DNA of 37,034 nt. Origin: Candidatus Hydrothermarchaeum profundi (GTDB lineage: Archaea; Hydrothermarchaeota; Hydrothermarchaeia; Hydrothermarchaeales; Hydrothermarchaeaceae). The position numbers and the translations under genes were made by a program. The stretch lies in NCBI GenBank assembly GCA_002011125.2, contig MTMF02000018.1:1-37034 (forward strand). The letters are read 5' to 3'. The first letter of the stretch is position 1. The number at the start of each line of letters is the position of its first letter. Below, in pieces: positions 16 through 30,463 of this stretch. The notes beneath the pieces were generated by a model. That model worked only from the letters and a program-made list of their open reading frames with translations, was not told where the DNA came from and made no database searches.

Positions 16-102
16 CTAATGTTTTATAATATTTTCTCTATACTTATAAATTAAGTGTTTTAGTGTAATAGTATTTATTTTATACATTTCCATAAATCCC
101 AT
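16..102 (-). CDS. 28-aa peptide with MGFM N-terminus
   Basis: Tiny ORF starting MGFMEMYKINT, with a Shine-Dalgarno GGTGA 6 nt before the ATG. The TAG stop directly abuts the terminal T tract, so coding runs to the genome end. Its first residues match four other left-end proteins (starts at 810, 1051, 1915, 2245), which is the main reason to believe it. The body is Lys/Ile-rich with no known domain. Function is unknown. Confidence 0.6.
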   Translation of the reverse strand: MGFMEMYKINTITLKHLIYKYRENIIKH

Positions 103-108
103 TTCAAT

Positions 109-324
109 TCACCTTGGTATCATGTAACCGTGTTCTAAATAATCCAGAAGTAAGTGCGTAAAAGCTGCCGATACCAATGCAAATGCCAGTGAAAACCGCA
201 ATTTCCATCCTGTGGTAATATGATGGCATATTAAAGATAATTGCGATACCGTCAAATATATCGAGTAATACACCAATAAGCCCACTAATCCAGAAAATAT
301 GAAATGGGTTAATGGGTCTGGCAT
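109..324 (-). CDS. Small membrane protein resembling the YdjM/DUF457 family
   Basis: 71-aa hydrophobic protein beginning MPDPLTHF and ending in FTHLLLDYLEHG. The pairing of an N-terminal (P)xxTHF with a later THLLLD is reminiscent of YdjM/DUF457 membrane-bound metal-dependent hydrolases, but this copy is less than half the usual length. A GGAGG lies about 11 nt upstream. A competing frame (start 331, end 104) has better Shine-Dalgarno spacing and an ATGA overlap with the upstream gene, but it uses ATT for Ile where the genome prefers ATA and lacks the His/Asp motif. The frame choice is therefore not certain. Confidence 0.5.
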   Translation of the reverse strand: MPDPLTHFIFSGLVGLLVYYSIYLTVSQLSLICHHITTGWKLRFSLAFALVSAAFTHLLLDYLEHGYMIPR

Positions 325-327
325 TGT

Positions 328-609
328 TCATGATTCCTCCTCGATTTCATTCATCGCATCTTCTCCTATTTCTTCTGCTTTCCTCAAGCAGTATATTAAG
401 AAGTTTGCACCTATTTCTTCTGGAGATACTCCTTCTGGTGCTGTTGTATACATTTCTACAAAATTTTTAATTACATCGGTCGCGTTGTCTGCCCATTTCT
501 GGTAGAACATCTTTAGCATTTTTTCTGTGATTTCTTTTGGTTGTGCGTTTAAGTCTGCTAGTCTTTCTACTACTTCGTCTTCTATTTCAAATTCTATACT
601 TATTTTCAT
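328..609 (-). CDS. Hypothetical acidic helical protein (93 aa)
   Basis: Starts MKISIEFEIEDEVV after a clean GGTGAT ribosome-binding site, and ends in an acidic tail (NEIEEES). The first part is strand-like and resembles the N-terminal arm of RHH-type proteins; the rest is predicted helical. No catalytic motif is visible. It overlaps or abuts the next small membrane gene, as expected for an operon member. Function is unknown. Confidence 0.75.
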   Translation of the reverse strand: MKISIEFEIEDEVVERLADLNAQPKEITEKMLKMFYQKWADNATDVIKNFVEMYTTAPEGVSPEEIGANFLIYCLRKAEEIGEDAMNEIEEES

Positions 610-615
610 ATAGCA

Positions 616-810
616 TCACCTTGTTTCTAATGATTCTTTTAATCGTTTTAATTCTGATTCTGTATATACTGTTTCCCCTCCTACTATTTTATATAATTTT
701 TCTCCGAATATATTTTTTCCTATATATCTGTATCTGTCTTGAAACTTTACACCTGTAATTTCATATTGTATCTTCATTCTCTTTTTTATTTTCTTATCCA
801 TGAATCCCAT
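616..810 (-). CDS. Basic 64-aa protein with MGFM N-terminus
   Basis: The start is placed at ATG 810 (MGFMDKKIKKRM), 4-5 nt after GGTGAG, rather than at a GTG that would lie inside the Shine-Dalgarno. The protein is Lys/Arg/Tyr-rich. It belongs to the left-end group sharing M-(G/S)-F-M plus a basic stretch. No known domain. A short, possibly nucleic-acid or membrane-binding protein is a guess from charge alone. Confidence 0.75.
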   Translation of the reverse strand: MGFMDKKIKKRMKIQYEITGVKFQDRYRYIGKNIFGEKLYKIVGGETVYTESELKRLKESLETR

Positions 811-838
811 TTTACTCACCTTGCTAAGTATTTTTATT

Positions 839-1051
839 TCACCTTTCTTTTTCCATGTAACATTCCCATTCTTCGGTTATCGTATTTAGGTTACACTTTA
901 TTACTGCGTCGCATTTTTCACATATATATTTTTTGTAGTCCCACTCATCATCCCAGAGTTCTATTTTGCCTCCGCATATTGGACACTCTGTATAAGGCCA
1001 TGGAGGAACTTTTATTGGTCTTTTCTTTTTCTTCATGTCCATGAAACTCAT
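839..1051 (-). CDS. Zinc-ribbon protein with MSFMDM N-terminus
   Basis: 70 aa. After the shared N-terminus (MSFMDMKKKKR) come CPICGG and, about 22 residues later, CEKC: a standard four-Cys zinc ribbon seen in many archaeal nucleic-acid-binding proteins. A third cysteine group (CNLNTITEEWEC) is unlikely to bind the same ion. GGTGA lies 6 nt upstream. Probably a small DNA/RNA- or protein-binding factor; the target is unknown. Confidence 0.8.
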   Translation of the reverse strand: MSFMDMKKKKRPIKVPPWPYTECPICGGKIELWDDEWDYKKYICEKCDAVIKCNLNTITEEWECYMEKER

Positions 1052-1057
1052 TTTGTG

Positions 1058-1246
1058 TCACCTCACAACCTTTTCTTTTTCAAGTATTACATATGCTATA
1101 CCGTTATTGTTTAACTCGTTTAGTATGTATTCATCTGGTTCTTTTACTGTAACACCGTATTTACTTATTATTACCTGTTTGCTGTGTTGTGTGATTGTCA
1201 TTATTGGTAAATCCCAATAATTTGCTGACTTGATTCTGATAAGCAT
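1058..1246 (-). CDS. Hypothetical protein (62 aa)
   Basis: ATG 1246 (MLIRIKSANYW) is preferred over GTG 1255 because GGAGAG lies about 10 nt upstream of the ATG but would touch the GTG. The gene overlaps the 3' end of the transglutaminase-like gene by 46 nt. The predicted fold is mixed alpha/beta. No family recognised. Confidence 0.6.
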   Translation of the reverse strand: MLIRIKSANYWDLPIMTITQHSKQVIISKYGVTVKEPDEYILNELNNNGIAYVILEKEKVVR

Positions 1247-1743
1247 GTTGGACACTCTCCTATATACATATAATCGGTATATTTTGATTCAACCACGTAT
1301 TCTTCAATACTGTCTGTCGTTAGTACTGCGTTGTTATCGAATACGTAGTATGCATTTTTCCTGTCACAGTAGAAGAATGTTACTATATGTGCTATCGGAG
1401 TATCGTTATACATAATCATCATTGATGGTTCTATACCTATATATGCTAAAAGACTTGCAGATAGCACGCTTAAGTCTTTACAGTCTCCATATCCTCTTTT
1501 TAGTGTAAGTTCAGGTGACTTTATGTCGTCTACTGTATCTTTTCTGTATTCAATTTGAGTCATTACATCCATGACGTCTTGTAGTGACTGTACTCCAAGT
1601 AGTTTACCTACAGATGGGTCTATGCTGTGATATGCTGTTATTAGTATGTATTTTAGTTCAGCTTCTTTAGTTTGTTTCGATGGGACAAGTATTTTGTATG
1701 TTGCATAAGATAGTATTGCTAGTGTAGCCAGTGTAAATAACAC
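1201..1743 (-). CDS. Membrane-anchored transglutaminase-fold cysteine protease-like protein
   Basis: 180 aa with an N-terminal membrane helix (residues 2-20) and a transglutaminase-like core. The triad is visible as Cys88 in GYGDCKD, His119 in AHIV and Asp136 in VFDNN. Transglutaminase-fold enzymes of archaeal viruses and pseudomurein peptidases use this Cys-His-Asp set to cleave or form amide bonds. The start is GTG 1743, after GGAGGTGA. A second protein of the same layout is encoded at 18298-19245. It probably acts at the cell surface or in the virion, for entry or release; the substrate is unknown. Confidence 0.8.
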   Translation of the reverse strand: MLFTLATLAILSYATYKILVPSKQTKEAELKYILITAYHSIDPSVGKLLGVQSLQDVMDVMTQIEYRKDTVDDIKSPELTLKRGYGDCKDLSVLSASLLAYIGIEPSMMIMYNDTPIAHIVTFFYCDRKNAYYVFDNNAVLTTDSIEEYVVESKYTDYMYIGECPTCLSESSQQIIGIYQ

Positions 1744-1747
1744 TATT

Positions 1748-1915
1748 TCACCTCCATAGTTTACCTATAACTAATCCTATGGCAAACCATGTTAGTTTTC
1801 TAATTGCTTCACTTTCTTCGTATGCACGTCTATACTCTTCTGCTGCTGTTTTTGTGGTTGTTACTACTTCAGCTGCTATTGGTTTAGCCAGTTTTTTCAT
1901 TTTCATAAAGCCCAT
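1748..1915 (-). CDS. 55-aa tail-anchored protein with MGFM N-terminus
   Basis: Begins MGFMKMKKLAKPIAAEV, continues as a charged amphipathic helix, and ends with one hydrophobic segment (WFAIGLVIG) before KLWR. The GGAGG of the next gene lies in its last codons, giving tight coupling. It is one of five left-end proteins with the shared N-terminal motif. Function is unknown. Confidence 0.7.
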   Translation of the reverse strand: MGFMKMKKLAKPIAAEVVTTTKTAAEEYRRAYEESEAIRKLTWFAIGLVIGKLWR

Positions 1916-1918
1916 TTT

Positions 1919-2245
1919 TTACAACCCCCTTAGCATTTTTTCTAACCTATTAAATTCTGCTTTTAACTCTTCCAGTGTTCTCTTTTTTAGTGGTACTATT
2001 ACTCCAGTAGGTGCTATAAAGTATGATGTTTCTGGGTGAGTTTCTTCGTACTCTTGTATGTTCTTCATTACTCTTATTGTTTTCATCACGTCTGCTCTTG
2101 TCATATCACGTAGTTTTTCTTTGCCTGTTACTATTTTTACTAGGTCTATCAGGTCATGGTAGTTCATGTCAAGTGTTCCTGCTATTTCATGCATTACTTG
2201 TTTAAGTTCTTTCTTTGTCATTTTTCTCATATCCATAAATCCCAT
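1919..2245 (-). CDS. Helical protein with MGFM N-terminus (108 aa)
   Basis: Starts MGFMDMRKMTKKELKQ, 5 nt after GAGGTGAT. The protein is mostly helical and highly charged, with a central strand-like TSYFIAPTGVIVPL segment and a C-terminal helix. It is the longest member of the M-(G/S)-F-M group. No known family. Confidence 0.8.
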   Translation of the reverse strand: MGFMDMRKMTKKELKQVMHEIAGTLDMNYHDLIDLVKIVTGKEKLRDMTRADVMKTIRVMKNIQEYEETHPETSYFIAPTGVIVPLKKRTLEELKAEFNRLEKMLRGL

Positions 2246-2421: not shown

Positions 2422-2949
2422 CTATACCACCTCCGCATAACCTTTTTCTTTTAGTAATTTTTTAAATACTTCATCTGGAGTAAGGTATCTATATTTTGGT
2501 TGTTTTGCTGTTGGTTTGTACCTAGCCCAGTCAACGTTTCTTGTTAAACAGTCTCTTATTGTTGAGTCTGGTATGTTTTCTATTAAGTGTTCGTCATTGT
2601 CAGCTGTAATTAGTTTTATGATTGAGTTACAACATATTTTTGTGTTTCGTGATAATCTTACTCGTCTTGTTGGTTCATCATCTATTTTTTCGAATCTCAT
2701 AGTTTCTTTATTATACATTATTGGTTGTACTACCGCATATACATATCCTCTACTTATTAGTGTTTTTCCTTTTAGTTTTGGGCATACAGGGTGTCTCTGA
2801 CCTTCTCTTATCTCATAGTAGTATTGTAGTTGTTCCTTTAGTTTTTCTATCTTCTTCTTTCTACGCCATTTACTTATTGTTGGGTCGTACATTGTTTCAA
2901 GTATTTTGTCCAGTATTTCGTCAAGTTTTCTATCTGCCCATTCTCTCAC
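2422..2949 (-). CDS. Hypothetical protein, helical N-terminus (175 aa)
   Basis: GTG start with GGTGG about 6 nt upstream. Residues 1-50 form a strongly charged helix or coiled coil. The rest is mixed and contains several Cys (CP, CC, CL) in no regular zinc-binding spacing. It overlaps the upstream tail-anchored gene by 4 nt. No family recognised; the context suggests a late or virion-associated protein. Confidence 0.75.
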   Translation of the reverse strand: MREWADRKLDEILDKILETMYDPTISKWRRKKKIEKLKEQLQYYYEIREGQRHPVCPKLKGKTLISRGYVYAVVQPIMYNKETMRFEKIDDEPTRRVRLSRNTKICCNSIIKLITADNDEHLIENIPDSTIRDCLTRNVDWARYKPTAKQPKYRYLTPDEVFKKLLKEKGYAEVV

Positions 2950-3410
2950 TTAGTACCACCTTTTCTAAATGCTGGTACAATTAGGTATACCGCTAGTGCT
3001 GTTAAAGTTATATACCCAGCGTATTTTATGTACTGTTGTATTTCTTCTGGTAGTGTCTTTGGTGGAGGTCTGTATGTGGTGTCAAGTGGCACTGTTCTTG
3101 AATCTACTACTTTTTCAGTTAGACATGCAGTTAGTATTTGACCTTCTTTTAGTGTTATTACTGCATACCAGCCACTATTGTAGTTGGTGTAGTAAAGGTC
3201 TGTTGATACAGTGACACATTGCTTTACGTATGTTTCTAGTCCTTCAAATTTATATCTATCTATGATGTTGTCGTCTTCGTCATATATTTCTACTGTTGCC
3301 CATACAGGACATGCTACATCTATTACAGACCTAACATCACATGCTGTTAGCCATACAGTTAATACTCCTGTTCTTTTCACCGAGAATCCTGCTGATTCTA
3401 TATATGCCAT
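2946..3410 (-). CDS. Beta-rich protein with C-terminal membrane anchor (154 aa)
   Basis: Predicted beta-sandwich ectodomain with four or more cysteines, then a Pro-rich linker (YRPPPKTLPEE) and one C-terminal TM helix ending in the basic tail FRKGGTK. There is no N-terminal signal peptide. ATG 3410 shares a base with the stop of the upstream gene. It has the same design as the next two upstream products, so the three probably form one surface or virion complex. Confidence 0.75.
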   Translation of the reverse strand: MAYIESAGFSVKRTGVLTVWLTACDVRSVIDVACPVWATVEIYDEDDNIIDRYKFEGLETYVKQCVTVSTDLYYTNYNSGWYAVITLKEGQILTACLTEKVVDSRTVPLDTTYRPPPKTLPEEIQQYIKYAGYITLTALAVYLIVPAFRKGGTK

Positions 3411-4420
3411 CAATCACCACCCCTTTTAGTAGCTGCTAGTGCTAGTCCTATTATTGCACCAGCTCCGATTAAGTATGGTGTATAGTTTGGTGGTTTTCTT
3501 TCTTCATATCCCGGTATAACTCCGGGTTTTTGGTTAATTACTGTTATGTCTTTCTCGAGTGTTACTGATTCATTTGTTATTGGGTCTATGTATGTAAATT
3601 GTGCAGTTACGACGTCTGATACTATGTCAGCGTCTTGTATTTCTACCTCTGATTGAAGTGATGCTGATTGTTTAGGTTCTAGCATTATATCGTCAAGTCT
3701 GTTTGGAGATACTGAAACTTTTAGTGGGTTGTGTTTTATACGGAAGTATCCCGGTACTGATACGTTACCTGTGTTTGTAGCTCCGATTTGTAGTTGTATT
3801 GGTACGAATGCGACTCCACTTATACTGTCTGGTGCAGATAGTGATACCGAAACTTTTGCTGGTTCTGGAGTTATTGTTTTTATTAAGTTACCTACAATTA
3901 CTTCAAGTGTTTTGCCGCGGTATTCTCCAGATAGTAATACTTTACCCATACCAAGTATTGTTGTTTTGTCTGTTGCTATTAGTTGTCCTTGGTACATAAC
4001 CTGTATGTTTGTTTCACACGGTGGTTTTGTTTGTATAACTATCGCAAAGTCTGTTAGTGTTTTTGATGGTTCTATTTCATAAGTGAAGTCAGTTAGTATG
4101 CATGGTTGAGGTGTTATGTCTTCTGCTAGTGTAAAGCTAGCACATTTTTCAGCTTTAGATGGGTCTGTTATTAGTACATTGCCCATTGATGCACATATAG
4201 TGTAGTTACCAGCTGGGAAGTTCATATATCCACCTATATACTCGTTTACACCTGTAGATAGACTTAATGTTCGTGAGTATGTCTCTATAAGCGTACTATC
4301 TCTGAATAGAGCTATAGATATTGGTGTAACCGTGTTAGATTCGGAGTATATCTCTACTGTAAATGGTACTCCAGCGTATGGAACGTTGTCAGATACTATT
4401 ATTTTTCGTATATAGGGCAT
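3410..4420 (-). CDS. Ig-like surface protein with C-terminal membrane anchor (336 aa)
   Basis: Several Ig-like beta domains are suggested by repeated strand patterns with NxT/S sites and phrases such as NTGNVSVPGYF, typical of archaeal adhesion and S-layer-associated proteins. The C-terminus has a Pro-rich stretch (KPPNYTPY), a TM helix and the basic tail TKRGGD. There is no recognisable signal peptide at the N-terminus. GGTGAG precedes ATG 4420. Likely a virion spike or surface protein. Confidence 0.75.
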   Translation of the reverse strand: MPYIRKIIVSDNVPYAGVPFTVEIYSESNTVTPISIALFRDSTLIETYSRTLSLSTGVNEYIGGYMNFPAGNYTICASMGNVLITDPSKAEKCASFTLAEDITPQPCILTDFTYEIEPSKTLTDFAIVIQTKPPCETNIQVMYQGQLIATDKTTILGMGKVLLSGEYRGKTLEVIVGNLIKTITPEPAKVSVSLSAPDSISGVAFVPIQLQIGATNTGNVSVPGYFRIKHNPLKVSVSPNRLDDIMLEPKQSASLQSEVEIQDADIVSDVVTAQFTYIDPITNESVTLEKDITVINQKPGVIPGYEERKPPNYTPYLIGAGAIIGLALAATKRGGD

Positions 4421-5454
4421 TACTTCTCACCTCTTTTTGCATACAATATTACTGCACCTGCTACTGCTGCAGCACCAAGTACATACGGTAGTTTCGATGG
4501 CTTCGGTTTTTCTTCTTCTGGTGGAGGAGGCGGTGGAGGTGGAGGCGGCGGTGGTGGCGGTGGAGGAGGCGGTGGAGTTATTATTTCTGGTGGTGTTATT
4601 GTTATTGGCTTACACATTACTGAACCCGGGTATGTTTCCTGTTCGCAGTTGAATATGTTGCCAATACTTACACCTACAATAACTTCTCCACCGCCCATTT
4701 CAACTGTTTCTTTTATCGTTTTAATTGACCAGTCATTATCGTTATAATGGAATGTGAACGTGTTTTTGCCTATATTTATGTCTGGGTACACTAGTTGGTA
4801 TAGTCTACCTAAGTATCCTTTGGTTGGGTGCTTCATTATAAGATTGAATATTTTACTTTCACCGCAGTCTGACTGAACGTCAAACTCGAGGTCGAAAGTA
4901 CCTGCGTCTATGTTCAGGTTTTTGACTCTTATATCGGTTATATATGTCTTACCTGAACATCTTGAGCCAGTAACTATCTTGTCAAGGTACAATGTATCAA
5001 CACCGTCTGTAACCATTATGAGTATAGCAAATTTTTGGTTGATAAATGCTAGGTCATCGTATCGTATTTTGAACTTAAACGATAACACTTTTGTCGCGTG
5101 AGGTGCAAGTATTTCTGTGGTATTAAACGACCATACCTTCCAATCTGATGGGTCAAGTGATACTATTTTTGGGACCTCTCCTCTTGCATTAAAGTAACTA
5201 CGTGCAGTTAAATCGCATATATCAAGTATCCAGTATGATTTTCCATATATGTAATCCGATTCTCTGAAATAGCCCCATACATTTCCTCCTTGACCGCATC
5301 TTCCGTTTGTATGTACATCTCCAGCAGCTACTATACCTTTTATTGTTATTAGTCTTGTTTCATCGCTATCGTTTGTTATTTCGAGTGGTATTGTATTTTC
5401 TATCGGTTCGTATGTTGGTTGTATTATAGTTACTGGCAATATGTTTGCTATCAT
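4420..5454 (-). CDS. Surface protein with 19-proline stalk and C-terminal anchor (344 aa)
   Basis: The N-terminal ~265 residues are beta-rich, with several Cys. An uninterrupted run of 19 prolines (nt about 4520-4576) follows, then EEEKPKPSK, a TM helix and the tail YAKRGEK. The proline run is encoded by mixed CCA/CCG/CCT codons, so it is maintained at protein level and is not recent codon slippage. It probably acts as a rigid stalk lifting the head domain off the membrane. It is translationally coupled to the downstream Ig-like gene. Confidence 0.8.
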   Translation of the reverse strand: MIANILPVTIIQPTYEPIENTIPLEITNDSDETRLITIKGIVAAGDVHTNGRCGQGGNVWGYFRESDYIYGKSYWILDICDLTARSYFNARGEVPKIVSLDPSDWKVWSFNTTEILAPHATKVLSFKFKIRYDDLAFINQKFAILIMVTDGVDTLYLDKIVTGSRCSGKTYITDIRVKNLNIDAGTFDLEFDVQSDCGESKIFNLIMKHPTKGYLGRLYQLVYPDINIGKNTFTFHYNDNDWSIKTIKETVEMGGGEVIVGVSIGNIFNCEQETYPGSVMCKPITITPPEIITPPPPPPPPPPPPPPPPPPPEEEKPKPSKLPYVLGAAAVAGAVILYAKRGEK

Positions 5455-7760: not shown

Positions 7761-8057
7761 TCAACCCTCTACGAACCTATATATTATTCTTGCTGATTGT
7801 GAAGTACCGTCTGACTTTAACAAGACAATCGGCTTACCTTTTGTAGTAAATGGTTCATCTTCAAACGTATCTTCAGTTGCTATGTCTATCCACGTTTCAC
7901 CCATATCAAATGAAACGTATAGTGTATCTGTAGTAGATTTGTTTTCTACTATAATACTATAAACTGGTTTGTTGAAAATTACTGTAGTTATCTCTCCTGC
8001 TGTACTTGAAGTAGTTATGTCTTTTTGTTTCGGTACTCCAACTTTCACTTCTACCAT
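7761..8057 (-). CDS. Small beta-sandwich virion protein (98 aa)
   Basis: All-beta protein with a Gly/Thr-rich core (STTDTLYVSFDMGETW). It resembles small proteins in the same operon at 10880 and 11984 in length and strand pattern, including a TDxLYxSxD-type strand shared with the 104-aa protein at 10880 (SSTDDLYISYES). These may be paralogous fibre or spacer subunits. GGAGGTG lies about 10 nt upstream. Confidence 0.75.
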   Translation of the reverse strand: MVEVKVGVPKQKDITTSSTAGEITTVIFNKPVYSIIVENKSTTDTLYVSFDMGETWIDIATEDTFEDEPFTTKGKPIVLLKSDGTSQSARIIYRFVEG

Positions 8058-8734
8058 TAACCTAACACCTCCACAAGAGTTTCTCTACTAATATCAGTTT
8101 TTGTAACATCTGTAAGTGTGCCGTTGTTTTTGTATTGACTTAAATCATACCATGTGCCTGCTGAAGTGTCAATGGTGTTTCCAATTAGCCATAATACTAT
8201 TGAGTCGTAATCTACAGGGTCGTAAGGGTTATGATATATATGACTAATCTCTGAATCAGTGAGTTTTTTGTCATATAATATAGTTTCTAAAATAAAACCG
8301 TTGAGAAATTCAGTAGTAGATGAACCTGCTCCAACTCTAAAAACTGATGGGTCTACACCATCTTTATTTTGTACAGATATTGTAGTTTTGTTTGTATTTA
8401 AAGTTATATCAACAGAATCCCTATTTTTAGATATGACAATAAAGTTCCATTTGCTCGACAACGCATATAAACCTGATGTTGGATTATCCGACGTATTATC
8501 ACTATACTTTATCTGACCTTGTATTTCAAAAGTATTTGGTTCTATCCAGAATCGTGTTGGAACTGTGTTGAATAGCATTAGAGCATTACCAGCTGTATTT
8601 TTACCAGACACTTTAACCCACATTACTACTGTCCATTTAGATGAAATAAAAGTATCGCTAATTGACGATGAATCTGAAATAACAACGATACTACTACTCC
8701 CATTAAAACTACCTGCATAACCGTACTGAATCAT
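8057..8734 (-). CDS. LamG-like fibre protein, paralogue 3 (225 aa)
   Basis: LamG/concanavalin-like domain. N-terminal YAGSFNGSSS matches the family's opening strand, and the C-terminus contains DTSAGTWYDLSQYKNNGT, a motif shared with the two adjacent genes. Such domains bind glycans in phage tail and archaeal adhesion proteins. GGAGGTGG precedes ATG 8734, which overlaps the stop of the upstream paralogue. Likely a receptor-binding fibre subunit. Confidence 0.85.
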   Translation of the reverse strand: MIQYGYAGSFNGSSSIVVISDSSSISDTFISSKWTVVMWVKVSGKNTAGNALMLFNTVPTRFWIEPNTFEIQGQIKYSDNTSDNPTSGLYALSSKWNFIVISKNRDSVDITLNTNKTTISVQNKDGVDPSVFRVGAGSSTTEFLNGFILETILYDKKLTDSEISHIYHNPYDPVDYDSIVLWLIGNTIDTSAGTWYDLSQYKNNGTLTDVTKTDISRETLVEVLG

Positions 8735-9450
8735 CCAACAACCACCTCCTGTTCACGTGCAATGCTTGTCTTTGTCATACCGTATATTGTTCCGTTATTT
8801 TTGTATTGAGATAAGTCATACCATGTACCTGCTGAGGTGTCTATTGTGTTACCAGTTAGCCACAGTACAATTTTGTCTTTTTTAGGTGGGTCGTATGGGT
8901 TGTTATATGCTTTTTTGATTTGAGAGTTAGATAGTATATAATCATTCCAGATAATTACTATCGCAATAAGTCCATTGAAAACATTTATAGAGTTATTAGT
9001 TGGGTTTACTCCTATTCTTAGTGGTGATGTATCAGTATACCACTCACCGATAAGTGTAAATGATTTATCTATCTCACCATTTATATATATACCGTTATTT
9101 GTTACAGTTATACACTGCCATAACATTAGTTGTACATTTGATGACGACTCATTAGCCTCGTACGAAGAGCCATCACCGTGCACAAACAGAATAGTTCCAT
9201 TGGCAGTAACACCTAACCTATAGTTTGCTGTCGGCCATGCAGATGTAGGCGATTTTACAACTATATCTCTTAGTGCATCTCCATAATATTTAGGATAAAT
9301 CCATGCCATTATAGTTATTTTATTAACTAGTCTTAAACTACTATCGTCAGATATGTTTGTATAATCGCTTGTACCATTGAAACTCCCCACATAACCACTG
9401 TAAAATGGTATCTTCTGTTCTCCGTGAACTACTCGTTTTGTCTTTATCAA
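8731..9450 (-). CDS. LamG-like fibre protein, paralogue 2 (239 aa)
   Basis: The product starts with TTG 9450, placed 8 nt after GGAGGTGA. The domain opens YVGSFNGTSDYTNIS and closes with the same DTSAGTWYDLSQYKNNGT motif as paralogue 3. The C-terminal halves of these two are the closest pair, pointing to a recent duplication. Glycan-binding fibre role inferred from family and position. Confidence 0.85.
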   Translation of the reverse strand: MIKTKRVVHGEQKIPFYSGYVGSFNGTSDYTNISDDSSLRLVNKITIMAWIYPKYYGDALRDIVVKSPTSAWPTANYRLGVTANGTILFVHGDGSSYEANESSSNVQLMLWQCITVTNNGIYINGEIDKSFTLIGEWYTDTSPLRIGVNPTNNSINVFNGLIAIVIIWNDYILSNSQIKKAYNNPYDPPKKDKIVLWLTGNTIDTSAGTWYDLSQYKNNGTIYGMTKTSIAREQEVVVG

Positions 9451-10151
9451 TATACTGTCACCTCCTCTTGACCAACTGTTTGTAATGTAGCACCGTAATT
9501 TGTACCGTGATTTCCGTTACCTGACAAATCATACCACTTTCCAGCACTTGTGTCAAATGAACCTGCGTCTAACCAGAGTACAAGTCCGTCTGTGATTGGT
9601 GTTCTATTTTTTGTAATCTTACTAACTTCTGAGTCGTTTAACTTTCTATTATATATATATACTTTAGCTATATATCCGTTAAAATACCATGTAAATCCTC
9701 CATTATTACCTATAAACATGTCATTAGCTGTTGATATTAGAGCACCATCTGCTGCTATTGTCTGTACACTACTACCGTCCACATAAAACTTACCACCGTC
9801 GTTCATATTGTATGTTAGTCCAAGGAAATGCCACTCGTTATTTGGCATGTAATATCCTGTATCATTTACTGTCCAGTAATTATTTGTATATAAAGCCCAC
9901 CATACATACCTTGTTGGACCTTTTATTAGTATCTCATAAGCAAATCCTTTTAATAGTAAAGATTCGTGAGCTGCTCCGCTAGCTCCTTTTGAATATGCAA
10001 GAACAAAAACACTCAACTCATCTGTCATACCTAAACTATTGTCGTGTGATACAGACACACGGACAGAACCACCACTAAAAGATGGGACTTGATATGGTAT
10101 TCTACGTAAATATTGTTTAGTTTCGACGTCCAAGTCTATTATAGCGGACAG
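9447..10151 (-). CDS. LamG-like fibre protein, paralogue 1 (about 234 aa)
   Basis: LamG-like domain with the C-terminal motif DTSAGKWYDLSGNGNHGT, the most diverged of the three tandem copies. The start is uncertain. TTG 10133 has no ribosome-binding site near it, whereas the strong GAGGTGATA lies 3-5 nt upstream of an in-frame CTG at 10151, giving (M)SAIIDLDVETKQ. I prefer the CTG extension, but ordinary predictors would call 10133. Confidence 0.75.
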   Translation of the reverse strand: MSAIIDLDVETKQYLRRIPYQVPSFSGGSVRVSVSHDNSLGMTDELSVFVLAYSKGASGAAHESLLLKGFAYEILIKGPTRYVWWALYTNNYWTVNDTGYYMPNNEWHFLGLTYNMNDGGKFYVDGSSVQTIAADGALISTANDMFIGNNGGFTWYFNGYIAKVYIYNRKLNDSEVSKITKNRTPITDGLVLWLDAGSFDTSAGKWYDLSGNGNHGTNYGATLQTVGQEEVTVY

Positions 10152-11983: not shown

Positions 11984-12310
11984 TCACTGCTCGTAACCAC
12001 CTATTGTTATACTTGAACCGTTTGTGTATGAACTTACCTGAGCAACTACAGAGGTAGCAAACTCAGGACCATTTCTTATGTCAGTAATAGCTTTCGTATC
12101 AGTAGCTGGTACCTGAACAACCAGCATTTTTGTTCCTGTAGCACTAGCACCATCCCATATAGTTACTGTAACTGCAGAACCTTCTTTATTAGCAACGATT
12201 ATATCAGTTAATCTGAACGTCCTACCTGTACTTACCGTATAAACTGTCTTATCGGTATTAGCTGCTGTGAAGTCAGCTTCGGCAGATTTAGGAGCACCAT
12301 CTCTCTTCAT
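11984..12310 (-). CDS. Beta-sandwich virion protein (108 aa)
   Basis: Thr/Ala/Gly-rich with a regular strand pattern (TGRTFRLTDIIVANKEGSAV), as in small jelly-roll decoration or fibre-base proteins of tailed phages and archaeal viruses. GGGGTGAT precedes the ATG. Structural role inferred. Confidence 0.75.
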   Translation of the reverse strand: MKRDGAPKSAEADFTAANTDKTVYTVSTGRTFRLTDIIVANKEGSAVTVTIWDGASATGTKMLVVQVPATDTKAITDIRNGPEFATSVVAQVSSYTNGSSITIGGYEQ

Positions 12311-12831
12311 TATTGAATCACCCCTATTGGTATGTTAGTATATTTACCCGGTTTTGAGTCAAGTTTATTTAATTTGAACTTGTACCCAAATACCACTACT
12401 CTATTTCTACTTATCGATGACTGAGTTGGGTTGTATATATCTACATATACCTTCTCATCCCTATATGTATAGAATTCTGTACTCTTCAGTGTTTCATCTA
12501 TGAGTTCCGTCATCAATGATACGTTAACAGGTACACCGTACTTAAGAGAACCCCTCTTAAGCTCTTTACCTAGCTGAGCCAATCTGACTTCAATGTCATC
12601 AAGTACTTTCATACGCCATTGAGCCATTTCACTGTCCTGTACATAGACTTCCTGAAACTCGTTACCCCTTGACCAGCTTTCTGACGATATTGTAACTGCA
12701 AAATCCTTTATAATATATCCTACAGGCTCTACATGCGTTACTTCAAAATACCCGTATGTTTTTGTTGAGTCGAATATTCTTACGTTCATTTCAGGCTGAA
12801 CTACCGGTTCAAAGTCTTTCATAAAAGGCAT
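12310..12831 (-). CDS. Virion-operon protein (173 aa)
   Basis: Starts MPFMKDFEPV after AGGAGGTGG. Mixed beta/alpha, with a central helical segment (MAQWRMKVLDDIEVRLAQLGKEL) and a C-terminal strand region. The N-terminus loosely recalls the M-x-F-M start of left-end proteins, but with no basic stretch. Possibly a connector or minor capsid component. Confidence 0.7.
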   Translation of the reverse strand: MPFMKDFEPVVQPEMNVRIFDSTKTYGYFEVTHVEPVGYIIKDFAVTISSESWSRGNEFQEVYVQDSEMAQWRMKVLDDIEVRLAQLGKELKRGSLKYGVPVNVSLMTELIDETLKSTEFYTYRDEKVYVDIYNPTQSSISRNRVVVFGYKFKLNKLDSKPGKYTNIPIGVIQ

Positions 12832-13430: not shown

Positions 13431-14048
13431 TTAAGGACTAGCAGCAATAGTTTCACCGACTTTCTCGCCGATTAGAGCAAATAGTCCAACAAACTTGTCA
13501 GCAGAAGTCTTGAAATTCATTTCAATTTCAATCTTGTCGTTCTGACCGTAGATTATTGCGTATGGCTTGTATGTACCATCCTCTGGGTCATACCTAAATG
13601 CCATTCCTCCAATTTCATCACTGTAAGCGTAGCATTGTTCGACTTCCCAGAAGTCAAGAACTCCAGAGTCACCCCTCTTGAACCTAATCGCAGTCAGGTC
13701 AGAACCTCCGGGAGTCAGGTCGAAGAATCCGAAGAATCCAATAACCTTGTTGTCTGGTACAGTCTCTCCAGCAGTAAGTATCGAGGACAAATCACCTGCA
13801 GTTATGTCGCTGGAATCCTCAGCCCAAAACTCCTGACCAGTTGTTTGTGCAGTTTTGAAAGTTATATCAACGAAGTCAGTAACGTTACTTGCAGTTGGGT
13901 CACCCGGTACCAAGTCTCTTACAACAGCCTCACTGTAGTTTTTAATTATACCACTGTCTTTCATCTTTTCAAGTATAAGCCTCTCACATTCCTGTCTAGC
14001 ATTAAGTTTATATTCCCTTGGCAATTCAGCAAGTGGTACTATAGGCAT
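13431..14048 (-). CDS. Candidate major or minor capsid protein, beta-rich (205 aa)
   Basis: Third gene of the virion operon, with an excellent GGAGGTGAT site. A helical N-terminus (~45 residues) precedes an all-beta domain with aromatic-rich strands (VIGFFGFFDL, AFRYDPEDGTYKPYAIIYG) compatible with a jelly roll. More GC- and C-rich codons than the operon average suggest high expression. It may be the capsid protein, or a major coat partner of the helical protein encoded at 14483. No HK97 or double-jelly-roll signature is recognised. Confidence 0.6.
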   Translation of the reverse strand: MPIVPLAELPREYKLNARQECERLILEKMKDSGIIKNYSEAVVRDLVPGDPTASNVTDFVDITFKTAQTTGQEFWAEDSSDITAGDLSSILTAGETVPDNKVIGFFGFFDLTPGGSDLTAIRFKRGDSGVLDFWEVEQCYAYSDEIGGMAFRYDPEDGTYKPYAIIYGQNDKIEIEMNFKTSADKFVGLFALIGEKVGETIAASP

Positions 14049-18297: not shown

Positions 18298-19245
18298 TTA
18301 GGAAATTTTAATTCTTGCCCATATATGTTCGTATCCTGTAGCCTCATCTTCAGGTGTTAACATCGCTACTGCTCTTTCTTCGTCCCACCCAGCTTTATGG
18401 TATCGCGAAAAGTCAACCATGTATACAGTTCCATTGATTTCAACACTTCCCCAAATGTGACCATAGCCTTGCTTGAGTCCAAGATATAACCATACGTTAC
18501 TATATCCTTTCTCTACGAGTATGCGCACTACTAAAGGATTTATGTCATCACAATCTCCTCTCAACTCATTGTGTATAAAGTACGATGGGTTCTGGAACAC
18601 ATCTAACTTATAGAATTGCTCCCTGTCGTCCATATAGATAAATGTCACTTCTTTCCTAGTATCTTTGTATACCAACAAGTATGTTCCATCATCCTGTATT
18701 ACAAAGTCTACTACATTAACGAAGTCGGTGACTAATTGATGGTCTTCCATAAGGAACTTCTTGAATCCTCTTGCGTATTTCATGTAGTCTCCGTCCCAGC
18801 TAACAGGAAATCTCTTTAACTCTACACTATACTTTGACAAGTCTAAAGGTATTTTCTCTGGTTTATTTACTTCAGCTAATAACTCATCATACTTCTCAAC
18901 TAGCCATTGATTTTCCGTTAGTACATCGTTTAACTGTTGCTTAGTTGTATTTAGCTTTTCTTTTGCGTTGTTAAGCTCTAACCTTGTCTGCTCAAGAGTA
19001 ATACTTATCACGTCTATCCTGTTTCTCAGTTCTTGATTTTCTGCAGTCAAATTGTAGTTAATACGCTGTAACTCTACTATAGTTTGTCTGTAACTATTTA
19101 CTTCATCACTCAAGTTATAATAGTCGTACACTAGGTCATTATACTGCCTTACCAACTGGTAGTTTTCGTATGTAACATACACTACTAAAGACACTGCAAC
19201 CAGACACAACGCAATAAATACCTTAGTCCAGCTTTCTTCTTTCAC
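18298..19245 (-). CDS. Membrane-anchored coiled-coil transglutaminase-fold protein (315 aa)
   Basis: N-terminal TM helix (residues 8-25), a long coiled coil (~35-130), then a transglutaminase-like domain with Cys232 in RGDCDD, His263 in YGHIW and Asp278 in MVDFS. The triad layout matches cysteine peptidases of this fold, including archaeal virus enzymes acting on cell envelopes. The coiled coil would hold the catalytic domain away from the membrane. GTG start after GGGTGATA. Probable role in entry or egress. Confidence 0.8.
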   Translation of the reverse strand: MKEESWTKVFIALCLVAVSLVVYVTYENYQLVRQYNDLVYDYYNLSDEVNSYRQTIVELQRINYNLTAENQELRNRIDVISITLEQTRLELNNAKEKLNTTKQQLNDVLTENQWLVEKYDELLAEVNKPEKIPLDLSKYSVELKRFPVSWDGDYMKYARGFKKFLMEDHQLVTDFVNVVDFVIQDDGTYLLVYKDTRKEVTFIYMDDREQFYKLDVFQNPSYFIHNELRGDCDDINPLVVRILVEKGYSNVWLYLGLKQGYGHIWGSVEINGTVYMVDFSRYHKAGWDEERAVAMLTPEDEATGYEHIWARIKIS

Positions 19246-23405: not shown

Positions 23406-23713
23406 TCTTCATCCCTCAACGCTTTCTCAACTATAGTGTGCAAAGCATACATTTTATCGTCTGGAATACCTATTGTACATACTGGTACATCTTTATTTAC
23501 TAAACGACCAGACTTTTTTACCGTATCACATATTCTATAGTCTCCCGGATATACATGCAAACCCTCGTTTATAGCATACTTTATACAAGAAATAAAATTA
23601 GCTATATCCGACTCTCTCTCTGGGTATATCACTATTCGTTTACACAACCGTCTTATTACACTATCATCCTCTATAACATACTCCCAAATACTTTCAACCT
23701 CAAATACCTTCAT
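23402..23713 (-). CDS. Hypothetical protein (103 aa)
   Basis: MKVFEVESIWEYVIEDDS..., alpha/beta, with three Cys that are not in a zinc pattern. GAGGTAGAGG precedes the ATG. It is absent from the duplicated copy of this region at 24.1 kb, showing that it was inserted after, or lost in, one copy. Function is unknown. Confidence 0.75.
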   Translation of the reverse strand: MKVFEVESIWEYVIEDDSVIRRLCKRIVIYPERESDIANFISCIKYAINEGLHVYPGDYRICDTVKKSGRLVNKDVPVCTIGIPDDKMYALHTIVEKALRDEE

Positions 23714-24072
23714 TCCTCTACCTCCTCATACAGTCTTACACCACACTTCTCGCAAAAGTTCATATACCTCTCGATTGGATGACCGTTAGGACATCTACTA
23801 GGTTCAACCTTTACAGCGTACATCATTGAACCACACTTGTAGCAATACCTATGCCTAATATATGTTTTATTACCACACTCAGGACATAGCCAATCGTATT
23901 TATCTTCTATATATATGCTCAATGCCATCATTAAAACACCCAGACTAATAGAAATAGCGAACACTAATCCGTTTTGCATGATACCACCTATAATAGCTCC
24001 TCCACCAAACGCCAATACTCCTAAACAAAATATAATGAATGGATGCCTCCACCACCAACTATTCCTAGTCAT
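23710..24072 (-). CDS. Membrane protein with double zinc ribbon, copy B (120 aa)
   Basis: Two N-terminal TM helices after RNSWWWRHP, then CPEC/CYKC and CPNGH/CEKC zinc knuckles in the cytoplasmic tail, ending EEVEE. The last ~60 residues are nearly identical to copy A at 24155, also at DNA level, while the TM region has diverged. The zinc part may bind the replication proteins or DNA and tether them to the membrane. Confidence 0.8.
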   Translation of the reverse strand: MTRNSWWWRHPFIIFCLGVLAFGGGAIIGGIMQNGLVFAISISLGVLMMALSIYIEDKYDWLCPECGNKTYIRHRYCYKCGSMMYAVKVEPSRCPNGHPIERYMNFCEKCGVRLYEEVEE

Positions 24073-24158
24073 TTTACGTCACCTCCTTCTATAATACTTA
24101 TCCACCATTTTCTTACTACAGTATCTGTATATATATCTAAAAATTCATCAAGTCTCAT
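24069..24158 (-). pseudogene. Duplicated 5' fragment of the Cas4-like gene (29 codons)
   Basis: MRLDEFLDIYTDTVVRK is identical to the start of the nuclease at 23405; the DNA differs at one base in ~49. After residue 17 the sequence switches to a stretch matching the end of the 44-aa ORF at 24539, read in another frame (WWISIIEGGDVK). It is a duplication scar. The short ORF could still be translated because the ribosome-binding site is kept. Confidence 0.8.
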
Positions 24159-24532
24159 TCCTCTACCTCCTCATACAGTCTTACACCACACTTCTCGCAA
24201 AAGTTCATATACCTCTCGATTGGATGACCGTTAGGACATCTACTAGGTTCAACCTTTACAGCGTACATCATTGAACCACACTTGTAGCAATACCTATGCC
24301 TAATATATGTTCTATAACCGCACTTAGGACATAGCCAATCGTATTCCATAACTATCCACGAAAACACAATGAACCCTCCTCCAATTAGCACCATTACAAC
24401 AAGTGGTATCATCGAGTTCTCTATACCACGCTTCTCAAGTACAAGACTTATAATAGTACCACTAGTAGCTAGCACTAATCCTATACAAAACACAATAGTC
24501 GGATGTCTCCACCACCAACTATTTCTAACCAT
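24155..24532 (-). CDS. Membrane protein with double zinc ribbon, copy A (125 aa)
   Basis: Paralogue of 23710-24072 with the same RNSWWWRHP start, two TM helices and four zinc-knuckle pairs in the tail. TM segments diverged, tails nearly identical. GGAGGTGATG precedes the ATG. Followed directly by the truncated Cas4 fragment, which marks the boundary of the duplication. Confidence 0.8.
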   Translation of the reverse strand: MVRNSWWWRHPTIVFCIGLVLATSGTIISLVLEKRGIENSMIPLVVMVLIGGGFIVFSWIVMEYDWLCPKCGYRTYIRHRYCYKCGSMMYAVKVEPSRCPNGHPIERYMNFCEKCGVRLYEEVEE

Positions 24533-24538
24533 TTTACA

Positions 24539-24673
24539 TCACCTCCTCCTGTAGTATTTATCCACCAACTCCCTCTGCCATTCACTCAAGTCTCCATATT
24601 TTAGTATTCTTGCTTTCAACAACTTATACAACCTTTTTGCTTCTTTTCTTTCGTCGTCAAATTCCAATACCAT
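24539..24673 (-). CDS. Small basic helical protein (44 aa)
   Basis: MVLEFDDERKEAKRLYK..., a charged single helix or helical hairpin ending VDKYYRRR. GGAGGTG lies 8 nt upstream. Its 3' end is the other breakpoint of the local duplication. Function is unknown. Confidence 0.65.
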   Translation of the reverse strand: MVLEFDDERKEAKRLYKLLKARILKYGDLSEWQRELVDKYYRRR

Positions 24674-24699
24674 CCTTAACACCTCCTAAAACATTTTAC

Positions 24700-24876
24700 C
24701 TAGTCTAACAAATCACCTAAAGCACCAAGTAGCACACCCAACGGAAGTGCAATAAGTATAGATATAGACGCTATTAACCCGAAATACCTTGGAAACATAG
24801 ACACCATAGCATACACAAAAGACACATATCCTATAGCACCCATAAAAAACACAGCCAAACTTTTAACTAATCCCAT
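24700..24876 (-). CDS. Two-TM membrane peptide (58 aa)
   Basis: ATG 24876 (MGLVKSLAVFFMG) with AGGAGGGATTAG upstream; two hydrophobic helices and an acidic end (GDLLD). Coupled to the 41-aa TM peptide upstream. Function is unknown. Confidence 0.65.
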   Translation of the reverse strand: MGLVKSLAVFFMGAIGYVSFVYAMVSMFPRYFGLIASISILIALPLGVLLGALGDLLD

Positions 24877-24878
24877 TT

Positions 24879-25004
24879 CTAATCCCTCCTTAACTTCCAA
24901 GTATATACCAAACCTGCAGACACTATTATAGCATACGCTACAACAAATACTAACATATATAACACTACTTCACTTACATCGTACACCATAGTTTCAATTA
25001 TCAT
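24879..25004 (-). CDS. Single-TM peptide (41 aa)
   Basis: MIIETMVYDVSEVVLYM..., one TM helix, then the basic tail TWKLRRD. GGAGGTGG lies 6 nt upstream, inside the helicase 3' end (11-nt overlap). Function is unknown. Confidence 0.6.
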   Translation of the reverse strand: MIIETMVYDVSEVVLYMLVFVVAYAIIVSAGLVYTWKLRRD

Positions 25005-26484
25005 CCTCTACCACCTCCACCGCTTCTACAAACCAACTCGGAAACTGACTTTTATATCTAAACAAGAAACCAAAACTTTCATCAAGTATATACGTCTTAC
25101 ACCAATCGTCTTCAGCTCTAACACCTCTACCACAAGCCTGTACCAAATTTTTAATTGCTTGATACCTATACCAGTTCCACGCTTTCCTGTTATTTAGCAA
25201 CTCGTCTACTCTTATATCGTTTAAATCTGGATAAGGTACTTTTGTAATCACTACGTACCTACACATATCATATCTTAAATCAACACCTCTTTCAAATCCA
25301 ACTCCTATAAACACTCCACCGTCTCTAATCCACTCCTTAAACTTATCATTCCTATCAACTGAATTATGTGAAATATATTTAATATTCATCCAGTCAAGCT
25401 CTCTACATATACCTTCTTTCAGTTCATAACTATTGCAGTGTACTATTCCGTTATACCCTTCATTCTCTTTAACTATTTTAGCCACAACCTTTGCAATCTT
25501 ATTGTAGTTATCTTCTCTAACGTCTTTAGTCATCTTACATATAGGCATATAGTAAACTTTCCTATTCTCAACTGGAAATGTATGTGGTACCTTAATCATT
25601 ACCGTATCGTTTGCATCTAAACCCGTTGTTCTGCAAAACATTACTCTATCTATTATAGTAGCTGAACTAACTAACCTATATTCTCCTCTCGACCATATTA
25701 GCTCTTCAATTATCTGACCAGCGTTAACTGGCTTGACAATCAACCTTTTTCCATCTGAAGTAAATACCCAGTTTCTCTTATCTTCACTAACCTTATTTAT
25801 AAACGTAGTCAGTTTTATCTTATACTTAATTAGTTTATTTAAATCCCTTAAATCATCTCTACTAAGTTCATCCTTTTCCTCAATTTCTTTTATAACACCA
25901 CATACCTTCTTATAAGCAGCTTTAGCCCAAACTATAACATCATCAATATCATTAAACCTATTTTTTGTCCTAAACTTAAAGCTACCAAACTCTATTGCCC
26001 AATTTTCCAAATCATCACCTTCATCAACTATTAATAGTTCTCTGTCATCAAACCCTAATCCCTCCGGCACATACCTATCATATATCAAATACGCAAAACT
26101 CATAGCTGCTATAGTATGATACATAGCATCGTACTTCTTCCTCTTATATATACATTCCTCTACACATACATAATTCTTCTTCGTCATACATGGTCCTGTA
26201 GCACAACTTTTACTTTTGTCAGCAAGACATACATAATTACTCCTACCCTTAATAACCGCTATATCAAGTATTGGGTCACTTTCAATCTGATTAAGCAATG
26301 ATACCTGAGGAGTAGTATAAAATACACTACCCATATTCATAGTAAACCATTTAGCTATTACATAATTAACTATACTTTTACCAAATCCTGTAGGTGCATC
26401 AATTAACACGTTAGTATACCCATCTTCATATGCACCTATTACTTTCTGTACCACTTCTTTCTGGTACTTCCTCGGTTTAATCAT
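24994..26484 (-). CDS. XPD/Rad3-like superfamily 2 DNA helicase with Fe-S-type cysteines (496 aa)
   Basis: Walker A APTGFGKS at 30-37; five Cys at 86, 94, 99, 107 and 111 between Walker A and B, where XPD/DinG enzymes hold a 4Fe-4S cluster; DExx box VDEGDD at ~153-158; motif VI QACGRGVRAEDD near the C-terminus. XPD-family helicases unwind DNA 5'-3' using ATP. It is likely the replicative or repair helicase of this virus, next to zinc proteins and downstream of the promoter at 27450. Confidence 0.92.
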   Translation of the reverse strand: MIKPRKYQKEVVQKVIGAYEDGYTNVLIDAPTGFGKSIVNYVIAKWFTMNMGSVFYTTPQVSLLNQIESDPILDIAVIKGRSNYVCLADKSKSCATGPCMTKKNYVCVEECIYKRKKYDAMYHTIAAMSFAYLIYDRYVPEGLGFDDRELLIVDEGDDLENWAIEFGSFKFRTKNRFNDIDDVIVWAKAAYKKVCGVIKEIEEKDELSRDDLRDLNKLIKYKIKLTTFINKVSEDKRNWVFTSDGKRLIVKPVNAGQIIEELIWSRGEYRLVSSATIIDRVMFCRTTGLDANDTVMIKVPHTFPVENRKVYYMPICKMTKDVREDNYNKIAKVVAKIVKENEGYNGIVHCNSYELKEGICRELDWMNIKYISHNSVDRNDKFKEWIRDGGVFIGVGFERGVDLRYDMCRYVVITKVPYPDLNDIRVDELLNNRKAWNWYRYQAIKNLVQACGRGVRAEDDWCKTYILDESFGFLFRYKSQFPSWFVEAVEVVEDDN

Positions 26485-26681
26485 AAAGCATATCCCCTAT
26501 CTTCAACTAGCATATTATAAAACTTATCATACTCAGGCTTATTCTTACCGAAACAGCATACATTTCTTTTACCATTACTTTTATGTTCTACAATAATCCT
26601 AACATAACCCCTACCTCGTCTACGCCTCCACGTTAATATACCTTGTCTACCACACCTAGGACAATTAATCATTACTACCAT
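26481..26681 (-). CDS. Zinc-finger protein (66 aa)
   Basis: ATG 26681 (MVVMINCPRCG) with GGTGGTGAT upstream. CPRC at the N-terminus, then a very basic strand pair (WRRRRGRGYVRIIVEHK) and a CC motif. It resembles small archaeal viral zinc-finger proteins. Overlaps the helicase start by 4 nt. Probable nucleic-acid-binding factor. Confidence 0.7.
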   Translation of the reverse strand: MVVMINCPRCGRQGILTWRRRRGRGYVRIIVEHKSNGKRNVCCFGKNKPEYDKFYNMLVEDRGYAL

Positions 26682-27399
26682 TGTAATCACCACCGAACAT
26701 ACTTATAATTTCAACCAACTTTCGTGCCTCCTTTACACCTAAAAAACTTTTCAAATCTTTATCTTTAAGTTTATCACCATCGTATATCCAGTACCACATA
26801 ACTTTTCTTTTCAACGCCTCATAAAGATTACTAACGTATTCCTTAAACCTGTTCTCAACACCTTCAGATGGTATAAGTATAACCTCTGGCAATTTAACAC
26901 CTTCTACATCTTCTACTCTAGTTAGCCCAACTAAATAACACAACCTCAAACACTTTGAACGTGAAAACTCAATTTGTCTCACCAACACACTATTTACCCA
27001 TTCAATAAATTCCCAAGGTAGTCTCGACTGAAACATTCTATCACCAGAACTGAACTCAAATGACACACCTAAATCCTCTCCCATAGGAGCACTACTTATA
27101 ATCTCTAACCTATATAACAATGAATGTATTAAATCAATTTCTTTACCTGCTATATAATGATACAACCTACCTGCACCAAGTATACATACTTTCGAAAACG
27201 CCTTCCATTGAGGCATATTAAATGCACTTCCCAAACTTTTTAAAGAGTCGTATTCCATCCTAGATAACCCCCATATTTTAACGTTCTCCGTATCGCTCCT
27301 AGCTGTCATTTTGTCAAGTTTAGCATATATCACACCTAACTTTCCTCTCCTGCCATCTATCTCAAAGTCTTTCTTAAAATCTTTATACCAATTATCCAA
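26665..27399 (-). CDS. Hypothetical protein upstream of helicase (244 aa)
   Basis: TTG start with GGAGGTAA upstream. Alpha/beta protein with no recognised motif; mildly basic N-terminus and a C-terminal helix. First gene of the operon carrying the helicase, with its own TATA box. The position suggests an initiator or replication accessory role, but nothing in the sequence proves it. Confidence 0.75.
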   Translation of the reverse strand: MDNWYKDFKKDFEIDGRRGKLGVIYAKLDKMTARSDTENVKIWGLSRMEYDSLKSLGSAFNMPQWKAFSKVCILGAGRLYHYIAGKEIDLIHSLLYRLEIISSAPMGEDLGVSFEFSSGDRMFQSRLPWEFIEWVNSVLVRQIEFSRSKCLRLCYLVGLTRVEDVEGVKLPEVILIPSEGVENRFKEYVSNLYEALKRKVMWYWIYDGDKLKDKDLKSFLGVKEARKLVEIISMFGGDYNGSND

Positions 27400-28680: not shown

Positions 28681-29026
28681 CCCACCCTTTTATCTTACTT
28701 ATGATATTCCTGAAATACATTCCAGACTTTATAGCATCGTCCATCATATCAAGCGCTCTCCATACAGCACCAATAAACGCACCAACATCTATAGCACTCA
28801 TAAGTGATATATTCGTCAGCTTAATAACAGCTATAGCCTTAAGCAACCTATCCGTCGTGTCTCCATCATCAATCCACTCTAAAAACTTATCAGCAGACTT
28901 TACAACGTCTATCTCCTTATCAGCACCTAGTCCGACAAACCCTCCAAACTCCTTGAAATACTTATCCATTTTCTCCATATACTCTTTTCTATCTATACCA
29001 AGTATATCGTATATCATATCAAACAC
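28667..29026 (-). CDS. Hypothetical helical protein (119 aa)
   Basis: GTG 29026 (MFDMIYDILGIDRK), 5 nt after GGGAGGTGA; the longer frame has no site. All-helical, with hydrophobic middle segments (AIDVGAFIGAVWRALD) and an acidic C-terminus. Overlaps the PCNA start by 14 nt. Function is unknown. Confidence 0.7.
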   Translation of the reverse strand: MFDMIYDILGIDRKEYMEKMDKYFKEFGGFVGLGADKEIDVVKSADKFLEWIDDGDTTDRLLKAIAVIKLTNISLMSAIDVGAFIGAVWRALDMMDDAIKSGMYFRNIISKIKGWDEDD

Positions 29027-29297
29027 CTTCTTCACCTCCCAACACTTCATCAATAAAGTTAAAATACGCTTCGTGGTTTTCATACCCAAAACTACCAAGT
29101 ACCTTATAAGATACTTTAGCCACTAACACCTTCATCATTTCTCTACCATATTTATCTGCAAAGCGTAACAAATGGTAATGCTTCGGATAGTAACCACTAC
29201 CCAAGTTAGCACCTAGCTTATAATCTCCCTTCTTTATGTCATAACCACATATAGCACACGTCAAGTCCCTACGAGCTTTCATCACCCTGAACTCCAT
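29019..29297 (-). CDS. Zinc-finger protein, PARP-type spacing (92 aa)
   Basis: ATG 29297 (MEFRVMKARRDLTC) with GAGAGGTGA upstream. CAICGYDIKKGD then KHYHLLRF gives a C2H(x)C/H2-like zinc site similar to PARP-type fingers that bind DNA ends. Probable DNA-binding accessory protein. Confidence 0.75.
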   Translation of the reverse strand: MEFRVMKARRDLTCAICGYDIKKGDYKLGANLGSGYYPKHYHLLRFADKYGREMMKVLVAKVSYKVLGSFGYENHEAYFNFIDEVLGGEEGV

Positions 29298-29595
29298 CCT
29301 CTTCACCTCTCTCATTCAACTCATCAGCTTTGAAAGCCTTATTGAAAGCCTTATACCAATCAAGTTCAGTCTCTTTCACTAACCTCATCACGACATCCCA
29401 TTCTTGCTCATACCTCGTAATATCCACTTTCGAAAGTTTCTTCAGAAAGTCAATGAACTCATCTACCTTTACCTCACCGTATAACTCAAGATTCAGCATC
29501 ACAACAGGTATCTCATCCTCATCTCTAACTGACATCCCTTTAATTCCTACATCCATACCATATACTCTAAAAGATATTGTCAAACCCTCATTCAT
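29269..29595 (-). CDS. Hypothetical protein (108 aa)
   Basis: ATG 29595 (MNEGLTISFRVYGMD) with GGAGGTGA about 9 nt upstream. Beta-rich N-terminus, helical C-terminus, acidic end overlapping the next gene by 29 nt. No family. Confidence 0.7.
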   Translation of the reverse strand: MNEGLTISFRVYGMDVGIKGMSVRDEDEIPVVMLNLELYGEVKVDEFIDFLKKLSKVDITRYEQEWDVVMRLVKETELDWYKAFNKAFKADELNERGEEDGVQGDESS

Positions 29596-29794
29596 TTTCT
29601 TCTTCACCTCCAAATAACCTCTTCTCCTGCTCCAGTATGAGCTTATACAAATCTTCCTCTAACTCACGTATATACCTAGCAGTCTCGACATACCCAGCAA
29701 CAGCAAGTAATTGCCCAGCTTTTGATAGTGTCGCAAGTCCCACAGTTGCAGTAACTAAACCAGCTACTTTTTTAGCAAATTCTTTATCAGTCAT
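29588..29794 (-). CDS. Hypothetical helical protein (68 aa)
   Basis: ATG 29794 (MTDKEFAKKVAG) with AGGTGG upstream. A hydrophobic segment (GLVTATVGLATLSKAGQLLAVAG) may be a weak TM or packed helix, followed by an acidic coiled coil. Function is unknown. Confidence 0.7.
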   Translation of the reverse strand: MTDKEFAKKVAGLVTATVGLATLSKAGQLLAVAGYVETARYIRELEEDLYKLILEQEKRLFGGEEENE

Positions 29795-29803
29795 ATATAC
29801 CAC

Positions 29804-29998
29804 CTACATATTTTTTAACTCCCATATCGCAAAGTCTGGTAAAGTTTTAACCTTTCCAATGAAATCACTAAACATCTCTTGACAAGCAGTAACTAAAGGA
29901 CAGAACCTAGTAAAGTCTACCTCTATATCATCCTGCAACTTCTTTTTCGCCCAATCGCAAAACTCTTTAACAGGACACTTATCACAATCAACCTTCAT
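29804..29998 (-). CDS. Cys-rich protein (64 aa)
   Basis: CDKCPVKEFC near the N-terminus and later FCPLVTAC give up to five cysteines, compatible with zinc or Fe-S binding. GGTGG lies upstream, within the previous gene. Function is unknown. Confidence 0.7.
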   Translation of the reverse strand: MKVDCDKCPVKEFCDWAKKKLQDDIEVDFTRFCPLVTACQEMFSDFIGKVKTLPDFAIWELKNM

Positions 29999-30197: not shown

Positions 30198-30255
30198 CCA
30201 CCACCTCTCTTACCCGCTATGCATTCTCCAAATCTTAACACGCTTAAAACTCACT

Positions 30256-30447: not shown

Positions 30448-30463
30448 TTATATCACCTCCTTT

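Follow-up and report, generated by a model that had tools for sequence, protein, structure and literature searches.

Five of the nine leftmost genes in a 37,034-nucleotide stretch of archaeal DNA (the window), all on the minus strand with starts at 102, 810, 1051, 1915 and 2245, open with a common eight-residue tag. The tag is MGFMDMKK-like and follows the pattern M[GS]FM[DEK][MK][KRY][KI]. It is tentatively read here, by analogy with phage T4, as a docking tag for one common partner, the most likely purpose being to load small, mostly basic proteins into the virion; we give this reading somewhat less than an even chance. The steps envisaged are as follows. (i) The tag, present on several small proteins, would be recognized by one common partner. 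(ii) The small, mostly basic proteins that carry it would be loaded into the particle during assembly. (iii) The loaded proteins would enter the next host together with the DNA, as the T4 internal proteins IPI–IPIII do. Met1, being followed by Gly or Ser, would presumably be removed to leave GFM or SFM ends. We infer both the partner and the virion destination of the tag.

The source element

The window is one of 19 contigs in a 2.19 Mb archaeal genome bin, and an archaeal 16S rRNA gene sits on a different contig of the same bin. Its two ends (positions 1-20 and 37015-37034) read C-T13 and, inverted, C-T14. With these ends the window looks like a complete linear element and suggests a complete linear genome; the T runs could be an inverted terminal repeat made of a short homopolymer, or could stem from the assembly. 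Almost every probable gene is on the minus strand. The element encodes an XPD/Rad3-like helicase, a PCNA-like clamp, a Cas4-like nuclease and a RadB/Sak4-like ATPase, as well as a LamG-type protein and proteins with a C-terminal membrane anchor. The helicase is the sole ORF above 350 aa, and also the sole window protein with distant homologues (~31% to haloarchaeal tailed viruses). Searches with the window proteins found no close relatives of the virus in IMG/VR, INPHARED or ~394 archaeal genomes. The window proteins scanned against PHROGs and Pfam (a subset of the ORFs) include no recognizable terminase, portal, HK97-type capsid or prohead protease; the AF2 model of a capsid candidate at 13431-14048 has a pLDDT of 36 and is unusable. 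We infer that the element is an archaeal virus.

The tagged genes

The five MGFM/MSFM starts reported among the first nine genes by a first-pass annotation are all real and lie exactly where it placed them. The leftmost tagged gene, MGFMEMYKINTITLKHLIYKYRENIIKH (16-102, minus strand; tag codons 1-8 at 79-102), encodes a 28-aa peptide that begins MGFMEMYK-INTITL; AGGTGA stands 6 nt before its ATG, and its stop codon is near the end of the contig. A 64-aa basic protein (616-810, minus strand; tag 787-810; MGFMDKKI-KKRMKI) found no family matches in profile searches. The third gene (839-1051, minus strand; tag 1028-1051; MSFMDMKK-KKRPIK) encodes a 70-aa protein with a weakly Lar-like zinc ribbon, and the fourth (1748-1915, minus strand; tag 1892-1915; MGFMKMKK-LAKPIA) a 55-aa protein with a hydrophobic C-terminus. 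The fifth (1919-2245, minus strand; tag 2222-2245; MGFMDMRK-MTKKEL) encodes a 108-aa helical protein with a GemA-like segment from Met9. A ribosome-binding site, AGGTGA or GAGGTGA, lies 5-6 nt before the ATG in four of the five, and a poorer G-run precedes the gene at 1915. The same annotation had described the residues after MGFM/MSFM as mostly basic: a basic run is present, but before it four of the five have an acidic residue 5 (E, D, D, D) and one has K.

Such a coincidence of starts is not expected by chance. Among 88 genes, 0.015 would carry [GS]FM at residues 2-4; the probability of at least five is 7e-12, or 5e-8 after a ×8000 tripeptide correction. N-termini were also clustered by BLOSUM score over residues 2-8 (threshold 17) and compared with 300 composition shuffles: the cluster in the window has five members, the shuffles at most three. 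The capsid-targeting sequence of the T4 internal proteins was recovered by the same test as a positive control, and at that threshold SIRV1, AFV3, ABV and ATV (Acidianus two-tailed virus) yielded only pairs. ATV encodes, at 24460-26862 and 28800-34622, two very large proteins with the common N-terminus MSSNYxxPDV.

Behind the tag the proteins part company. After residue 11 no pair of bodies scores clearly above shuffles, the best value (Z 2.1, for 810 versus 2245, one of ten pairs) being marginal, so the earlier description of the bodies as unrelated holds. All evidence for the tag comes from one genome.

Selection, copying and start-site effects

Apart from the ribosome site and an A-rich spacer, DNA identity among the five genes is at background upstream, jumps at the ATG and drops after codon 8. 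Within the block, pairwise differences at codons 2, 3 and 5 number 8, 0 and 21 at the first, second and third positions (p 0.012 over columns, 0.037 within codons; ~0.05-0.06 for wider codon sets). This third-position variation, in five short sequences, is suggestive of protein-level selection on the tag peptide.

The first-pass annotation had named a translation-start sequence bias as what would undo a targeting signal. Such a bias, acting only at the mRNA level through ATGGGNTTYATGGANATG, would account for a block that begins exactly at the start codon and for the in-frame ATGs, which fall at codons 1 and 4 and in most copies also at codon 6. It fits poorly with the excess of variation at third positions. 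Ribosome sites at least as good precede untagged neighbours in the same run, and tag-type starts are absent from the host chromosome and occur only as chance singletons in 296 other archaeal genomes. A pure start-site effect is therefore very improbable.

A more serious competitor, although still unlikely, is duplication of a start cassette. The ATG and about seven codons would have been copied onto several genes, or ancient duplicates would have diverged fully behind the tag, perhaps with no present function or as an expression aid only. The sharp onset at the ATG and the decay after codon 8 are what such copying would produce; the tag also seems to have been added before a native Met in 2245 and possibly in 810 (Met12), and tandem duplication does occur in the window (23710-24532). 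Against this, the five share no upstream DNA except the ribosome site, no residual homology is found in the bodies, and residues were kept while third positions diverged, which points to protein selection (p 0.01-0.06). The exon-like 5' cassette proposed in the first-pass annotation thus stands in part: the sharp start and the position of the tag ahead of the apparent native GemA-like Met of 2245 agree with it, but the upstream DNA is unshared and recent copying is not visible. Copying may be how the tag spread. It is compatible as the origin of a docking tag, and is the main rival to one if the tag is now functionless, in which case the five genes would illustrate clearly that viral orphan genes can have modular N-termini.

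PspA and Vipp1 bind membranes through an N-terminal amphipathic helix. A tag of this kind would explain the hydrophobic FM followed by basic residues, and MGFMDK-type starts recur in bacteria, Streptomyces among them, on ORFs that are unrelated. Over residues 2-12, however, the helical hydrophobic moment ranges from 0.12 to 0.41, where N-termini across the window average 0.32 (sd 0.15), and it never exceeds that of 76% of shuffles. Two copies of the tag have Pro12, and residues 1-8 of the 2245 protein are non-helical in its AF2 model. The membrane variant of the shared targeting signal that had been proposed finds no backing here, and we consider an amphipathic helix improbable, to almost the same degree as a start-site effect. 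A targeting signal in the broader sense remains the best-fitting reading, given a tight block, unrelated bodies and the poor fit of start-site bias.

Gene neighbourhood

From the gene start at 12831 to the left end of the window, intergenic gaps are at most 30 bp. With such close packing, the tagged genes probably share transcripts with those for LamG and membrane-anchored, presumably virion, proteins. They form the distal end of this packed run, downstream of the probable virion genes. A possible sixth tag, MPFMKDF, begins a 173-aa protein within the probable virion module (12310-12831, minus strand; GGAGGTG before the ATG). This match is short and marginal: the frequency of the FM dipeptide predicts ~0.05 such starts in the remaining genes.

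The neighbourhood bears on a further alternative, that the tag docks to a non-virion partner such as a host protein or a viral complex (membrane, replication or egress). The tagged genes lie among short proteins with hydrophobic segments (331, 1743 and 2421), and no feature links the tag specifically to capsids. The packed run contains probable virion proteins too, however, and the possible MPFM copy lies inside the virion module. We regard a non-virion partner as unlikely, a shade more so than the start cassette.

Several other proteins of the run have recognizable features. Three adjacent proteins at 8057-10133, possibly adhesins, look alike by eye, and two of them have a near-identical C-terminal stretch; the one at 9447-10133 has a LamG/concanavalin fold (Pfam E 5e-17). 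Three consecutive proteins at 2946-5454, possible envelope spikes, each end in a C-terminal hydrophobic anchor with a short basic tail, and proline-rich stretches are present in two. The protein at 1201-1743 combines an N-terminal hydrophobic segment with a transglutaminase-like domain (DUF553, E 1e-6), and by eye the C-terminal part of the 18298-19245 protein resembles it.

Occurrence of the tag elsewhere

In IMG/VR, DNA patterns for the tag, exact or anchored on the ribosome site, gave first one match, on a T4-like contig and in the wrong frame, and then 12 singletons, none of which sits on a contig with several tagged starts. In GTDB contigs the tag pattern again gave singletons, almost all bacterial among the matches listed and uninformative on archaeal viruses. 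The host phylum is represented by 23 genomes in the set searched; these and 296 further archaeal genomes contained only four chance singletons, and not one of the four coincides with a gene start preceded by a ribosome site. On the host chromosome, tag-type gene starts are absent.

Tagged cargo

Two of the bodies weakly resemble known phage proteins, and their likeness is suggestive of cargo of the host-takeover type. The 2245 protein matches phrog_286, the GemA family, over residues 4-64, which align with profile positions 2-62 (E 0.0036). Phage Mu GemA (PF06252) aligns with this profile too, its Met1 falling on position 7. Taken together, and read without gaps, the two alignments make Met1 of GemA correspond to residue 9 of the 2245 protein, the Met directly behind the tag; the tag is thus extra relative to Mu GemA, and the N-terminal segment alone matches. 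Longer N-termini occur in some GemA proteins, which makes an extra N-terminal stretch nothing out of the ordinary for this family. With a custom profile built from nine phage GemA proteins, the 2245 protein came out on top, ahead of every other ORF of the window and of 1000 shuffles (12.4 bits; best shuffle 7.2). BLASTP with Mu GemA gave no match to it, and its score against Pfam GemA (14.5 bits, E 0.067) is below the curated cut-off of 27, so the likeness is treated as a lead. Its single-sequence AF2 model (pLDDT 74) has no helix before residue 11, and structure searches with this model returned no clear match.

For the zinc ribbon of 1051, the restriction-alleviation protein Lar is the top match in NCBIfam (TIGR03655, E 0.002) and in PHROGs (phrog_6422, E 0.0054). 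The NCBIfam score, 18.4 bits, falls under the cut-off of 39.6. In Pfam the score is likewise below the curated cut-off (Lar, PF14354), and other ribbons (LysW, TFIIB) do equally well or better.

Comparison with T4 internal proteins

Phage T4 offers the closest parallel. Its diverse small anti-defence proteins, which include anti-restriction proteins, have in common only the capsid-targeting sequence that places them in the head (PMC3012670). IPI, IPII and IPIII of T4 thus resemble the tagged proteins in having a short N-terminal block common to small, otherwise different proteins, and by this analogy virion loading is plausible. The suggested cargo types and the place of the tagged genes in the packed run agree with it. 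The blocks themselves differ in sequence (MKTYQEFIAE versus MGFMDMKK), with nothing evident in common. T4 is moreover a tailed virus with a scaffold core and a prohead protease, neither of which is recognized here. Terminase, portal, HK97-type capsid and prohead protease all went unrecognized among the proteins scanned, so the T4 route of scaffold and cleavage has no visible counterpart. A literature search of partial coverage found no T4-like internal-protein address in archaeal viruses, and we know of no equivalent. It is possible, although we think it doubtful, that the element is an archaeal virus of an undescribed group with an independently evolved T4-like cargo-loading code, the tag sending several host-takeover proteins into the particle. 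Were this so, the tag would identify at once the orphan proteins that are delivered together, and it would offer a short peptide with which to load reporter proteins into virions of archaea.

Other paired N-termini in the window

Tandem duplicate genes at 23710-24072 and 24155-24532 begin MTRNSWWWRH and MVRNSWWWRH. Their membrane segments have diverged, and their zinc-ribbon C-terminal halves are near-identical. Another N-terminal style, hydrophobic and then basic, is found in the adjacent proteins with starts at 16067 and 16536, which begin MGVLSKFKNKQK and MKIPILSRFFKK.
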